From NCBI GenBank assembly GCA_026989265.1, contig JALSJP010000001.1, positions 1-64,000 on the forward strand: 64,000 nucleotides of DNA. Direction: 5' to 3'. Below, in pieces: positions 907-5,587 of this stretch. Position 1 is the first letter of the stretch. Every line of letters begins with the position of its first letter. The translations under genes were made by a program, and so were the position numbers. The stretch comes from Micavibrio sp. (lineage in GTDB: Bacteria; Pseudomonadota; Alphaproteobacteria; Micavibrionales; Micavibrionaceae). Under the pieces are notes generated by a model that saw only the letters and a list, made by a program, of their open reading frames with translations, ran no database searches and was not told where the DNA came from.

Positions 907-1905
907 TTGTCATCTTCGAAAAAACAAAAAACCAAACCATTACCAGTGTCATTAAAAGAACTTAAAAAGCTTTACTATGAAATGCTTATGATCCGCCGCT
1001 TTGAAGAAAAAGCAGGGCAGCTTTATGGTATGGGTTTAATTGGTGGTTTTTGCCACCTTTATATCGGGCAAGAAGCGGTTGTGACAGGCATTAACTCCGT
1101 GCAAAAGCCGCAAGATACGGTTGTTACATCATATCGCGATCACGCGCATATGCTAGCTTGTGGCATGTCCCCTAACGGCATTATGGCAGAGCTTACAGGG
1201 CGCATTGATGGTTATTCGCGCGGCAAAGGCGGCTCTATGCATATGTTTAGTCGCGAAAAGGGGTTTTTCGGCGGTAATGGAATTGTGGGGGCGGGGACGG
1301 CTATTGGCGCGGGACTTGGCTTTGGGCATAAATATAGCGGCGATGGCGGGGTTGCTATTGCTTATATGGGTGATGGTGCGTCAAATCAGGGGCAGGTCGC
1401 GGAATGCTATAATATGACCGCTCTTTGGGATTTGCCCGTTTTATTTGTGATTGAGAATAATCAATATGCTATGGGGACATCTGCGCCTCGCCATGCTGCG
1501 GGTCAATTATATCGCCGCGGTGAAGGTTATGGAATACCAGGAGAACAAGTTGATGGTATGGACGTGTTTGCAGTGCAAAAAGCCGCTAAACAAGCTCTTG
1601 ATTATGCAAGGTCAGGCAACGGCCCTTATATTTTAGAGGTTATGACTTATCGTTATCGAGGGCATTCAATGTCTGATCCCGCGCAATATCGCTCTAAGGA
1701 AGAGGTGGCTTCTATGAAAGAAGAGCGTGACCCTATTACTCAGGTCAAGAATATGTTGCAAGATCAAGGCGTTGATGATGATGCACTTAAAGCAATGGAT
1801 AAGGATATTAAGGCAATTGTGGCGGAGGCTGCAAAATTTGCACAAGCCAGCCCTGAGCCTGAAGCTCACGAGCTTTGGACTGATATTTTAGTGGAAAGGG
1901 TTTAG
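907..1905 (+). CDS. pdhA: pyruvate dehydrogenase E1 component, alpha subunit
   Basis: Thiamine-diphosphate-dependent decarboxylation of pyruvate, as an alpha2beta2 tetramer with PdhB. 332 residues. The ThDP/Mg motif GDGASNQG...N begins at about residue 155 and runs into ECYNMTALWDLPVLFVIENN. SYRDHAHMLACG and the loop YRGHSMSDPAQYRS are typical of E1-alpha. The start is TTG at 907, supported by GAGGA at 894-898 with 8-nt spacing; no in-frame ATG precedes the conserved N-terminus. First gene of the pdhA-pdhB-pdhC-lpdA operon, 4 bp before pdhB. Confidence 0.97.
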   Translation: MSSSKKQKTKPLPVSLKELKKLYYEMLMIRRFEEKAGQLYGMGLIGGFCHLYIGQEAVVTGINSVQKPQDTVVTSYRDHAHMLACGMSPNGIMAELTGRIDGYSRGKGGSMHMFSREKGFFGGNGIVGAGTAIGAGLGFGHKYSGDGGVAIAYMGDGASNQGQVAECYNMTALWDLPVLFVIENNQYAMGTSAPRHAAGQLYRRGEGYGIPGEQVDGMDVFAVQKAAKQALDYARSGNGPYILEVMTYRYRGHSMSDPAQYRSKEEVASMKEERDPITQVKNMLQDQGVDDDALKAMDKDIKAIVAEAAKFAQASPEPEAHELWTDILVERV

Positions 1906-1909
1906 ATAA

Positions 1910-3304
1910 ATGCCAACACAAATTTTAATGCCGGCGTTATCGCCAACCATGACCGAGGGGAATCTAGTTAAATGGCTGGTAGCTGAGGGTGATGCTGTGG
2001 AATCTGGTGATGTGATTGCCGAGATTGAAACTGACAAAGCCACGATGGAAGTGGAAGCCGTTGATGACGGCATTATAGGCAAGATTTTGGTTGCGCAAGG
2101 CACTGAAAATGTTCCTGTAAATACTCCAATTGCTATGCTTTTGGAAGATGGTGAGGATGCTTCTAGCGTTGTTATTCCGAGCAAAGTCGAGGAAACCAAT
2201 GTAGAAACTGAGCAGCATTCTATTGATGTTCAAGATGGTGACACTACAAATAACCGTGATATTTTATACGCTAAGGGCATTATTATTGAGCCTGTGCCAT
2301 TTGATGAAGCGGCATTTAGTGAGACTGTAAACCAAACCGTGCGCGAGGCTTTGCGCGATGCAATGGCAGAAGAGATGCGCAATGATGACCGTGTTTATTT
2401 GATGGGTGAGGAAGTCGCCGAATATCAAGGAGCTTATAAGGTATCACAAGGCTTGCTTGATGAGTTCGGAGCGCGCCGCGTTATTGACACGCCAATTACC
2501 GAGCATGGCTTTACGGGAATGGCGGTTGGCTCTGCTATGAATGGTTTAAAGCCAATTGTCGAGTTTATGACTTGGAATTTTGGCATGCAAGCCATGGATC
2601 ATATCATTAATTCTGCTGCTAAAACGCTTTATATGGCGGGCGGGCAGCTTGGTTGTCCTATCGTGTTTCGCGGAGCAAATGGCGCGGCGTCGCGAGTGGG
2701 TGCGCAGCATTCACAATGTTTTGCAAGCTGGTATGCACATGTTCCCGGTTTAAAGGTGGTTGCGCCTTGGTCTGGCGCGGATGCTAAAGGCTTGTTAAAG
2801 GCTGCTATTCGTGATCCAAATCCTATTATTTTCCTTGAAAATGAGCTGCTATATGGTGAGAAATTCGATGTTCCTGTATCGGATGATTTCGAAATTCCTA
2901 TTGGTCGAGCTAAAATTGAGCGGGAAGGTTCGGACGTAACTATCGTTGCGTTTTCAATTATGGTTGGCAAGTCCTTGGAAGCAGCAGAAATGTTGGCAGA
3001 GCAGGGCATTGATGCGGAAGTTATAAATCTTCGCACTATTCGCCCGCTTGATCGCTATACTATATTGGAAAGCCTAAAAAAGACTAACCGCATAGTATCG
3101 GTTGAAGAAGGCTGGGCTTTTGCAGGCATTGGCGCAGAAATAGCCGCTCTTTGCGGGGAGCATGCATTTGATTATATGGACGCGCCGCTAGTGCGAGTTT
3201 GCGGCGCAGATGTGCCTATGCCTTATGCTGCAAATTTAGAAGATTTAGCACTGCCAAAACCACAAGATATTGTTAACGCAGCAAAAAAGGTTTGCTATGT
3301 GTAA
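1910..3304 (+). CDS. pdhB: pyruvate dehydrogenase E1 component, beta subunit with N-terminal lipoyl domain
   Basis: Beta subunit of the E1 heterotetramer, 464 residues. A biotinyl/lipoyl domain occupies about 1-80, with lysine 43 in ETDKATME as the lipoylation site. After an acidic linker the transketolase-like domain begins at about 140: [63 protein letters not shown]. The lipoyl fusion on E1-beta is known in several alphaproteobacterial groups. The lipoyl-coding DNA is strikingly similar to that at the start of pdhC, including many silent positions. Immediately downstream is an inverted-repeat arm and an unrelated GxxExxY gene. Confidence 0.97.
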
Positions 3305-3313
3305 TATTTATTT

Positions 3314-3775
3314 AACGCGGAGCTTCGGAGAAACGGAGTTTAGATATTGGTAAATAGCTTGCAAAATTATAATGATCTTCCAGAGGATTTAAACGCCTTA
3401 TCAGGAAAGATAGTGGATTGCGCTTTTCAAGTTCATAAAGAGCTAGGGGCGGGATTTTTAGAAGTTAATTATGAAGATGCTTTTATTATCGAATTAAAGC
3501 GTAAAAATTTGAATTTTGAACAGCAAAAAACATATAATATTCCATATAAAGATGGTTTCTTGAAATCTAGTTTTAGGTTTGATTTAATAATTGAAAACTC
3601 TATTTTAGTTGAGCTTAAGGCTGTAGAAAAAATCAACCCTATTCACCAAGCACAAATTTATGCATATCTAAAAGCTACAAATTTGCCTATTGGGTTATTG
3701 ATTAATTTTAACGTTAGGCTTATTAAGGATGGAATAAATAGATATGTCCTCCGAAACTCCGATTCTCCGCGTAAA
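3314..3775. repeat. inverted repeat pair bounding the GxxExxY gene
   Basis: Left arm 3314-3341, just after the pdhB stop, contains ACGCGGAG followed by two further CGGAG blocks. The right arm (about 3748-3775), inside the 3' end of the GxxExxY ORF, reads on the opposite strand as ACGCGGAG followed by two CGGAG blocks with the same spacing; the bases between blocks differ. The arms bracket exactly the gene that interrupts pdhB-pdhC, so they may be ends of a mobile-like cassette. No target duplication was seen. Confidence 0.5.
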
Positions 3776-3790
3776 AAGGATTTTAATTAA
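3347..3790 (+). CDS. GxxExxY family protein (PD-(D/E)XK nuclease-like), inserted in the pdh operon
   Basis: 147 residues. Named motif visible: HKELGAGFLEVNYEDAF gives G-x-x-E-x-x-Y. A PD-(D/E)XK-like core follows: FRFDLIIENSILVELKAVE (D...E-x-K), then HQAQIYAYLKATNLPIGLLINFN, typical of this family. The molecular role of GxxExxY proteins is not established. The start is TTG at 3347; the stop overlaps the pdhC ATG by one base (TAATG), so translation of pdhC may be coupled to it. The gene is out of place between E1-beta and E2, is AT-rich compared with them, and has inverted-repeat arms at both ends, suggesting insertion. Confidence 0.85.
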   Translation: MVNSLQNYNDLPEDLNALSGKIVDCAFQVHKELGAGFLEVNYEDAFIIELKRKNLNFEQQKTYNIPYKDGFLKSSFRFDLIIENSILVELKAVEKINPIHQAQIYAYLKATNLPIGLLINFNVRLIKDGINRYVLRNSDSPRKKDFN

Positions 3791-5034
3791 TGACAATAAA
3801 TATAACTATGCCGGCGTTATCGCCAACAATGACAGATGGGACATTGGCTAAATGGCTGGTAGCCGAGGGTGATACTATAGAATCAGGTGATGTGATTGCC
3901 GAGATTGAAACCGACAAAGCCACGATGGAAGTTGAAGCCGTTGATGATGGGGTTGTTGGTAAGATTTTGGTTGCAGAGGGCACAGAAAATGTTCCTGTAA
4001 ATGATGTTATTGCGATATTGCTGGAAGATGGGGAAGATGCTTCTTGCGTTGTCACTCCGAGCAAAGTCGAGGGGTCTAAACCAGTTAGCAAAGAAAAATC
4101 TCCTGAGGTTGTGGTAGCAAATGCTCCTGTCACTCTGAATGACAATAATAGTGATCGTATTTTCGCATCACCATTGGCACGGCGCATAGCAAAGGATAAG
4201 GGGCTTGATCTTGCTGGCATTAAAGGCTCTGGCCCGCGCGGGCGCATTGTTAAGGCGGATGTTGAAAAGGGTGTTGCAAGCCACAAATCACAAGTTGTAA
4301 AACCTGCTGAAACCAATAACTCTGATATGAAAATTAATATCTATGGCATGGCTTATACGGAATTGCCAAATAACAATATCCGAAAAGTAGTTGCTAAGCG
4401 TTTGACCGAGTCTAAGCAAGATGTGCCGCATTTCTATCTTACTATTGAATGTATTTTGGATGAGCTTTTGGCTGCTCGTAAAAATATCAATGATAAAGCA
4501 AATGGGGCGTATAAACTCTCGGTCAATGATTTCATTATCAAAGCCAGCGCAATGGCTCTTAAAACCTATCCTGAAGCTAATGTTTCATGGAGTGATGACG
4601 CTATATTCCAATATCTTAAGGCGGATATTTCTGTTGCTGTTTCAACGCCAAATGGCTTGATTACTCCGATTGTAAAAGCCGCCGAGGATAAGGGTTTGAA
4701 AGATATTTCGGCGGAAGTTAAAGATTTAGCTGGTCGCGCTCGTGAGGGTAAGCTTAAGCCTGAAGAGTTTCAAGGCGGCTCGTTCACTGTATCTAACCTT
4801 GGTATGTTTGGGGTTAAAGAATTTGCCGCTATTATTAATCCGCCGCAAGGTTGCATCTTAGCTATCGGAGCGGGTGAGCCTCGCCCCGTTGTTATTGATG
4901 GCAAGATTGAGATTAGAACAGTTATGAATTGCACATTGTCTGTGGATCATAGATGTGTAGACGGCGCAGTCGGCGCGGAGTATCTTAAAATCTTTAAGCA
5001 ATATATAGAAAATCCAGTTTCTATGCTGGTTTAG
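3790..5034 (+). CDS. pdhC: dihydrolipoamide acetyltransferase, E2 of pyruvate dehydrogenase
   Basis: Transfers the acetyl group from the lipoyl arm to CoA and forms the complex core. 414 residues with one lipoyl domain (about 1-80, lysine 43), a linker, a peripheral-subunit-binding domain at about 124-160 (ASPLARRIAKDKGLDLAGI, GSGPRGRIVKADVE) and the acetyltransferase domain from about 195. The catalytic motif DHRCVDG has His387 and Asp391. The linker around 95-120 is short and lacks the usual Ala-Pro richness. The start overlaps the upstream GxxExxY stop by one base. Confidence 0.97.
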   Translation: MTINITMPALSPTMTDGTLAKWLVAEGDTIESGDVIAEIETDKATMEVEAVDDGVVGKILVAEGTENVPVNDVIAILLEDGEDASCVVTPSKVEGSKPVSKEKSPEVVVANAPVTLNDNNSDRIFASPLARRIAKDKGLDLAGIKGSGPRGRIVKADVEKGVASHKSQVVKPAETNNSDMKINIYGMAYTELPNNNIRKVVAKRLTESKQDVPHFYLTIECILDELLAARKNINDKANGAYKLSVNDFIIKASAMALKTYPEANVSWSDDAIFQYLKADISVAVSTPNGLITPIVKAAEDKGLKDISAEVKDLAGRAREGKLKPEEFQGGSFTVSNLGMFGVKEFAAIINPPQGCILAIGAGEPRPVVIDGKIEIRTVMNCTLSVDHRCVDGAVGAEYLKIFKQYIENPVSMLV

Positions 5035-5053: not shown

Positions 5054-5587
5054 ATGGCAGTAAATAGATATCCAATCATTGGGGTTATGGGATCTCATGA
5101 ACATTCACATGAGGAATACTCATCTGTTATTGGTGAGCTAATCGCAAGGCGCGGCTATAATTTACTTACTGGCGCGGGCGCAGGAGTTATGAGTGCGGTT
5201 GCCAAGAGCTTTACCGAGGTTGAAGACCGCAAGGGCGTTGCTATCGGTATATTGCCTGCCGTCGATTATAAGGGGCAAAAGCTTGATAAAGAAGAATACC
5301 CCAATAAATATATTGAAATCCCAATGATAACGCCGTTAAGTGAAAAGGCGCAAAATGATAAAATGCCGTTCAGCCGCAACTTGGTTAATGTGATGACATC
5401 TAAGGCTTTGGTTGTGCTACCGGGATCGCATGGCACGCAAAACGAAGTGTCTCTTGCGCTTATGTATAACAAGCCTATAATTTTATTTGGGCCTGATGAT
5501 GCATTTGTTAAGTTTCCAGAAGACCCCTTGCGCGCAAGCATAATTGATCACGTAGAACAATTTTTTGATGATATATTTGGTGAGTGA
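5054..5587 (+). CDS. LOG/SLOG-superfamily protein (lysine-decarboxylase-like Rossmann fold)
   Basis: 177 residues. The N-terminus IIGVMGSHEHSHEEY, the nucleotide-binding-like stretch LLTGAGAGVMSAVAKSF (about 38-54) and the later LVVLPGSHGTQNEVSLAL (about 119-136) match the LOG/SLOG pattern, in which PGGxGTxxE is usual; here PGSHGTQNE replaces it. LOG enzymes release cytokinin bases from nucleotides, while related SLOG proteins bind nucleotide-type ligands; the substrate here is unknown. It sits between pdhC and lpdA, 19 bp after pdhC and 10 bp before lpdA, so it is probably cotranscribed with the complex. Confidence 0.7.
   Translation: MAVNRYPIIGVMGSHEHSHEEYSSVIGELIARRGYNLLTGAGAGVMSAVAKSFTEVEDRKGVAIGILPAVDYKGQKLDKEEYPNKYIEIPMITPLSEKAQNDKMPFSRNLVNVMTSKALVVLPGSHGTQNEVSLALMYNKPIILFGPDDAFVKFPEDPLRASIIDHVEQFFDDIFGE

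Follow-up and report, generated by a model that had tools for sequence, protein, structure and literature searches.

A GxxExxY gene between mutually matched arms in a Micavibrio pdh operon belongs to a widespread family of cassettes

MITEs and REP/RAYT elements, two of the systems with which the cassette described here may be compared, possess ends that are fixed within a family, together with a DDE or Y1 transposase. Free-standing homing endonuclease genes constitute another; to our knowledge, none of them displays copy-specific matched arms, and the PD-(D/E)XK homing enzyme I-Ssp6803I is intron-borne. A further system is represented by the intervening sequences of 23S rRNA genes. The Coxiella intervening sequence spans 428 nt, contains a single small S23 ORF and terminal inverted repeats, carries tandem heptamers near its end and is regarded as selfish, and its arms were shown to form an RNA stem that is cut by RNase III (PMC4990558).

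Cassettes formed by a GxxExxY gene and two facing arms share traits with all of these systems. They resemble the 23S rRNA intervening sequences in size, in having a single small ORF and terminal inverted repeats, and in their tandem units; unlike those, which lie in rRNA genes and carry an S23 ORF, the GxxExxY cassette lies in a protein-coding operon, and its arms display no sign of RNA-stem selection. Like free-standing homing endonuclease genes, they carry a nuclease gene, occupy recurrent sites, are patchily distributed and bear signs of having been gained horizontally at one and the same site, with the difference that cutting by GxxExxY is an activity that we infer. With MITEs and REP/RAYT elements they have in common short dispersed intergenic hairpins that outnumber the gene-bearing copies, but their ends vary by copy and their gene encodes a PD-(D/E)XK protein. 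In the open-access library searched, GxxExxY or its accessions appear in three papers and typical arm strings in one unrelated paper, and no description of such GxxExxY cassettes was found.

The window, i.e., the whole stretch of DNA analyzed, comprises 64,000 nucleotides of a Micavibrio sp. genome (assembly GCA_026989265.1, contig JALSJP010000001.1, positions 1 to 64,000), and includes an operon of pdhA, pdhB and pdhC in which a GxxExxY gene sits between the last two (Table 1). This location between E1-beta and E2 had been proposed from the letters alone (hereafter, the sequence-only reading), and both the open reading frames and the profile matches agree with it. The matching CGGAG-rich arms said to bracket the gene were confirmed as well: the left CGGAG cores lie at 3318-3322, 3326-3330 and 3334-3338, and the inverted right cores at 3749-3753, 3757-3761 and 3765-3769, i.e., three units 8 bp apart on either side, with 15/15 core bases and 1/6 spacer bases matching between the arms. 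The best ungapped 23-nt match of the arms (18/23) was reached in 2 of 3000 dinucleotide shuffles and in 0 of 4000 random placements within the window. Arms included, the cassette extends from ~3314 to 3772, a size of ~460 bp. Judging from the sequence, the most likely start of the gene is the TTG at 3347, for which the innermost left unit (GGAG) is positioned like a Shine-Dalgarno sequence. At the other end, the right arm does occupy the 3' coding end of the gene itself, as had been claimed, with the TIGR04256 match stopping at residue 134 of 147; AAAAAGGA stands, as read, between this arm and pdhC, and the GxxExxY stop codon (3788-3790) overlaps the pdhC start (3790) by the single base previously reported. 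An Rfam search of positions 2800-4300 gave no match at E up to 1. The starts of pdhB and pdhC (1910-2059 and 3790-3939, lipoyl domains) share 84.7% DNA identity over 150 bp, a likeness perhaps kept by conversion. Downstream of pdhC lie a SLOG/LDcluster4 gene (5054-5587; PF18306, E 2.6e-27) and an ORF resembling lipoamide dehydrogenase.

Table 1. Features of the pdh locus and its GxxExxY cassette (positions in the window).
Feature	Position	Strand	Basis
pdhA (E1 alpha)	907..1905	+	ORF; name from sequence and operon context
pdhB (E1 beta, N-terminal lipoyl domain), upstream neighbour	1910..3304	+	PRK11892, E 1.2e-237
Left arm: AA followed by CGCGGAG, CGGAG, CGGAG; cores 8 bp apart	3314..3338	+	
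GxxExxY gene, 147 aa, predicted PD-(D/E)XK nuclease fold; D79, E89, K91 and Q103 kept	3347..3790	+	
Right arm, left arm inverted in unit sequence and spacing, within the 3' coding end	3749..3772	-	
Leader with AAGGA, candidate ribosome-binding site for pdhC	3773..3789	+	read from sequence
pdhC (E2), lipoyl-domain start homologous to that of pdhB, a type of downstream neighbour common to the pdh-site copies	3790..5034	+	TIGR01349, E 1.9e-164

The encoded protein belongs to the GxxExxY family according to two profiles, TIGR04256 (E 3.9e-41; 140.1 bits, cut-off 35) and PF13366 (E 1.3e-39; 135.6 bits, cut-off 22). In an alignment of 69 sequences, D79 and K91 are invariant and E89 is kept in at least 90%. 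The structure closest to the model of the window protein (pLDDT 87.5) is SSO0001 (Z 9.4, rmsd 5.6 over 108 residues), the sole one with Z of at least 8; restriction and Hjc-type nucleases gave Z values of 6-7.4, a level that may reflect a common arrangement only. On the basis of this fold and of the catalytic residues, GxxExxY is a predicted PD-(D/E)XK nuclease. A search of PDB sequences with the GxxExxY profile returned no match at E up to 10. A defence role was discarded: a single weak match was obtained in PADLOC (Cas4, E 0.028) and none in PHROGs at E up to 1. Purifying selection on the gene is evident in the two testable pairs, i.e., the 2 of 10 with dS below 1 (dN/dS 0.015/0.372 and 0.046/0.162); in the remaining 8 pairs dS was saturated or nearly so, with dN of 0.12-0.26. 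GxxExxY genes were present in 21 of 58 related genomes and in 58 of 299 sampled genomes of the phylum, and 3 of 14 control genomes gave TIGR04256 matches below the cut-off. The window genome carries a second GxxExxY cassette, with CACAGCG arms (L026, G000:C16:102709-103092), adjoining a gene that resembles acetyl-CoA acetyltransferase; its sister L027 is found beside the same gene in another genus. Two GxxExxY relatives located beside a nadC-like gene in two species (L018, L019) have no detected arms and possibly constitute a domesticated branch, and L021 and L029 are weak, very long-branched matches without arms.

The sequence-only reading had left open whether the gene is a mobile cassette or a domesticated gene, and had proposed to inspect the pdhB-pdhC junction in relatives and to look for further arms; both comparisons favour the cassette. 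Among the pdhC loci compared (30 loci, the best among 57 genomes with a match; pdhB is also present in 28 of them), the pdhB-pdhC joint carries a GxxExxY gene in the window only; several other relatives have a clean joint, others a different sequence, and genome G013 an arm-bracketed remnant. Small ORFs with signal-peptide-like starts were seen at this joint in L032, L034, L035, L038 and L040, and their occurrence in several relatives suggests that the joint is a variable slot. The pdhA-pdhB joint, empty in the window genome, is occupied in two relatives (L002 and L025). The window copy and L002 are sisters from two genera, 73% identical and both with CGGAG arms, one located at pdhB-pdhC and the other at pdhA-pdhB, where it is co-directional with its operon. 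The genes downstream of both joints share their lipoyl start (69% of 84 residues and 69% of 150 bases), whereas the upstream genes show no protein match and 61% of bases by forced alignment, a level that the downstream DNA likeness exceeds only modestly. A shared downstream start next to unlike upstream genes fits a site recognized on its downstream side.

Regarding the arms, the expectation of further copies held for the architecture and failed for the CGGAG sequence itself. In this genome, no facing pair of exact CGGAG arms less than 700 bp apart was found other than that of the pdh locus, and the CGGAG arm pattern had 18 matches against 12 for the reversed control. Conversely, the left arm clearly matched the inverted right arm in 21 of 30 copies from related genomes (the nine others, some of which are weak matches, being L009, L012, L014, L018-L022 and L029), with unit types CGGAG, CACAGAG, CACCAAG, CACGAAG, CACTAAG, CACGAAT, CGCCACG and CACAGCG. 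In a wider set of 80 loci, drawn from a broad range of bacterial phyla and from two archaea of the Methanophagales, the median arm self score was 19.5, compared to 9.0 for swapped arms, and 29 loci exceeded the 99th percentile of swaps. The units follow CRCNNAG with a spacing of 7-12 bp; in the window arm, the first unit CGCGGAG fits, as do the other two except for their first two bases. At least two CRCNNAG units on both sides were found in 53 of the 80 loci and in 0 of 768 random positions of the same DNA; for one side only, the counts were 59 and 66 of 80 against 14 and 20 of 768, and units in the wrong orientation were seen in the left flank of 16 of these loci and in the right flank of 10. 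Copies within one genome also have differing ends. The arm sequence is no shared repeat; each copy carries an arm sequence of its own, on which its two ends agree. Neither conservation of gene and arms in all relatives nor an absence of arms from other GxxExxY genes was encountered. Among 87 of 99 clear-armed cassettes, the downstream gene lies on the same strand in 64, on the opposite strand in 10, and was not found in 13, and both neighbours are on the same strand in 44; a loose ribosome-binding-site pattern, counted in 38 of 64 without a control set, is given no weight as evidence. These counts, the unit-versus-protein Mantel test and the smaller element set mentioned below all left out L005, L008 and L012 with their duplicates L080, L089 and L113, as well as L018-L021, L029 and some of L160-L189. 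Two irregular copies were observed: the decayed cassette L286 has a CGCAGAG-type left arm and a CGCAGAT-like right end, apparently mismatched, and the right arm of L347 is interrupted by another palindromic repeat (GTACAGGATGTACC...).

The agreement between both arms of one copy was quantified by permutation. At the three variable positions of the unit, both arms agree in 51, 40 and 48 of the 53 loci, with permuted means of 28.6, 24.5 and 27.9, an agreement reached in 0 of 10,000 permutations. For the 80 of 137 elements with at least two canonical units per arm (duplicates L080, L089 and L113 dropped), unit bases agree in 81% (swapped mean 47%, maximum 57%; 0/2000 swaps as high) and spacing in 94% (39%, maximum 53%; 0/2000), while spacer bases agree in 50% (39%; 32/2000). 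In the 50 elements that share less than 65% protein identity with one another, the corresponding values are 84% vs 48% for units, 92% vs 41% for spacing, and 50% vs 41% for spacers (193/2000 swaps as high). Units and spacing match while spacers hardly do, which fits two arrays read by the same DNA-binding machinery, and the sequence pattern would differ from that expected of recent arm-to-arm copying or of continuous-hairpin selection. In 17 copies from the trpD-trpC joint, with units at 78% vs 56% (0/2000) and spacing at 93% vs 77% (5/2000), spacers also agree above chance (66% vs 51%; 14/2000), so that some copying between arms is possible there. Between elements, agreement rises with protein identity for units (Mantel r 0.20; 0/1000 permutations), the value for spacing being r 0.12 (4/1000).

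Neighbour genes define 14 recurrent sites that hold 50 of 59 copies; the site labels (among them carAB, sdhDA, sucCD, pyrBC, sufBC and ileS) were taken from neighbour sequence, and carAB and atpG each lump two joints. On the protein tree there are 17 site-label changes, with a minimum of 13 and a shuffled mean of 34.4 (0/200 as low), a clustering that would also follow from vertical descent, and the ileS, sucCD, atpG and pdh groups are not single clades. For the majority of 14 pairs, the divergence of GxxExxY is comparable to that of the proteins encoded on either side, which indicates long stays at a site and is also compatible with prolonged vertical inheritance accompanied by losses. The genomes sampled yielded no near-identical strains that differ in the presence of a cassette, and no empty site close enough to reveal a target duplication; the cassette-free relatives of L171 also differ in ~150-240 bp of intergenic DNA.

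Sampling was best for the trpD-trpC joint of a different family (f177) within the phylum, for which 50 of 63 loci were parsed: a full cassette is present in 21, the joint is empty in 21, only facing arms occur in 7, and one locus (L345) falls into none of these groups. The 13 unparsed loci comprise 6 without trpD upstream and 7 without trpC in the stretch, and include the full copies L333 and L343, in the same places as L186 and L179. Classification was made by eye for L299, L302, L303, L318, L340 and L353; L319 and L323 were counted as empty by analogy with L318 (same 1037 nt), and L307, whose TrpD is too short for the tree, as arms only. At least 16 of the 21 empty joints are a stop-start overlap such as ATGA, and a single genus (g302) has 14 full and 6 empty joints. 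Cassette and flank histories disagree here: for 19 of the 21 full copies, GxxExxY divergence shows no correspondence with TrpD divergence (Mantel r 0.12; 344/2000 permutations as high). Two of six pairs are striking, namely L347/L349 (G512/G418, different genera), with cassette DNA 90%, trpD 68-82% and trpC 67% identical, and L324/L337 (G441/G535), with the cassette 94%, trpD 69-86% and trpC 79% identical; in the other four, the cassettes are 72-77% identical, barely exceeding their flanks or even falling below them. The 100 bp of trpD that adjoin the cassette show greater similarity in both striking pairs than the 200 bp beyond them, a gradient such as co-conversion would leave, although two pairs prove little. 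Presence and absence at a fixed site together with horizontal gain, one of the traits by which a homing gene is recognized, were accordingly found at trpD-trpC. Further, L339 and L342 have 23 and 27 extra bases and no arms, possibly scars of loss, and the hairpins L302 and L303 mix CACAGAG and CACGAAG in the left arm and have only CACGAAG in the right, as though the unit type were changing over.

We interpret these findings as a site-faithful, homing-like selfish cassette of operon joints, and put the probability of this reading at about 0.6. The mobility of GxxExxY cassettes is well supported, and their fidelity to sites is supported as well, by several tests largely at sites other than that of the window, and a homing-like mechanism is what we infer as the best fit; the cutting of the empty site, the reader of the arms and the repair-driven copying are its presumed components. 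The selfish unit would be made up of the left arm, one PD-(D/E)XK GxxExxY gene and the right arm, and would reside at joints of co-transcribed genes, being faithful to particular ones in the manner of a free-standing homing element. Its nuclease, aided by or together with the arms, would cut or mark the empty joint, where repair from a cassette-bearing copy would install the cassette; since the upstream stop and the downstream start are kept on insertion, the operon can still work. The arms would be arrays of short units read as double-stranded DNA, and as both ends must share unit and spacing, they would change together. Loss of the gene would leave two arms facing one another.

Alternatively, the gene may descend from an ancient insertion and have since taken on a host function, for instance as a repair or quality-control nuclease, being inherited vertically and often lost, with arms that are regulatory DNA or remnants. 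Such domestication would account for the purifying selection in the two testable pairs, for sister cassettes about as diverged as their neighbours, for the clustering of lineages by site, and for the few matches in plasmids (8 among 72,556 records) and viral contigs (one locus, L391). It is rendered unlikely by the patchy occurrence among relatives and across the phylum, by the disagreeing histories at trpD-trpC, where two cassette pairs are clearly more alike than their flanks, and by the presence of the window lineage at two different joints in two genera.

Gene-less arm pairs bear on a second alternative, namely that the cassette is a conventional transposon with terminal inverted repeats, which gives rise to short non-autonomous derivatives and whose movement depends on GxxExxY or on a transposase acting in trans. 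In 8 related genomes, among the matches listed, arm neighbours less than 700 bp apart were facing in 27 cases, diverging in 2 and in the same direction in 5 (rows from G032, G034, G040, G041, G051 and G057 excluded, one overlapping row dropped), and 23 of the 27 facing pairs listed are 37-257 bp apart. The window genome holds several such gene-less pairs, including a hairpin on contig C13 (G000:C13, L243) that has the same CACAGCG arms as the second GxxExxY cassette on C16 and shares some adjoining coding bases with it (score 25, maximum 16 in 300 shuffles); together with the arms-only trpD-trpC joints, this hairpin indicates that derivatives lacking the gene occur both at the site of a cassette and in other places. 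Both the abundance of short facing pairs and the C13 hairpin would be expected of a transposon, yet the ends vary by copy even within one genome, with no fixed family end, the sites recur, and GxxExxY is, as far as we know, not a known transposase, which makes this explanation improbable. Even less credit can be given to an RNA-level element of the intervening-sequence kind, whose arms would pair so that RNase III removes the cassette and the insertion is harmless. Terminal repeats, tandem heptamers, an S23 gene and RNase III cutting are indeed documented for intervening sequences (PMC4990558), and folding prediction for the window RNA has the arms paired with each other. This fold, however, has a z-score of just -1.38, with 9 of 100 shuffles folding as well, and the spacers are nearly free while units and spacing match. 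Moreover, arm mismatches in 117 of 137 elements include 177 of G·U type and 177 of A·C type in the sense RNA (172 and 174 in a smaller element set), i.e., no excess of the wobble-tolerant type; because both types are equal, the arms look read as DNA and not as an RNA stem, and selection on such a stem was dismissed as unsupported.

Similar copy-matched arms are displayed by S23 and DUF559 genes. The S23 four-helix-bundle gene (TIGR02436; 19 loci, L061-L079, in 14 of 289 genomes) has arms of tandem units of ~7 bp matched within each copy, with a median self score of 21.5 compared to 8.5 for swapped arms and 10 of 19 loci above the 99th percentile, a pattern with which the Coxiella intervening sequence agrees (PMC4990558). 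For DUF559 (30 loci, L361-L390; gene ends approximate), the values are 23 and 11, with 10 of 30 above the 99th percentile; many DUF559 arms are themselves palindromic (CCCTCTCCC...GGGAGAGGG type). We tentatively propose, with rather less confidence than for the GxxExxY cassette itself, that homing-like cassettes form a class found across prokaryotes, whose small genes, unrelated to each other (GxxExxY, S23 and DUF559), lie between mutually matched arms, and, as a suggestion of the same tentative standing, that the arms of this class match one another (in GxxExxY, in unit sequence and spacing) and not a family consensus. If true, there would have to be an undescribed mechanism of recognition or mobility, one by which both ends are compared or read jointly and whose specificity can change in concert.

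Taken together, the pdh locus of the window carries one representative of a cassette family that is widespread. GxxExxY genes are common, yet they are named only by their motif; should they prove to be homing-like cassettes residing at operon joints, this large and unexplained gene family would acquire a biology, and the many short palindromes with the same units an origin. The co-varying ends would then constitute a natural record of a DNA-recognition code, readable from sequence and testable.
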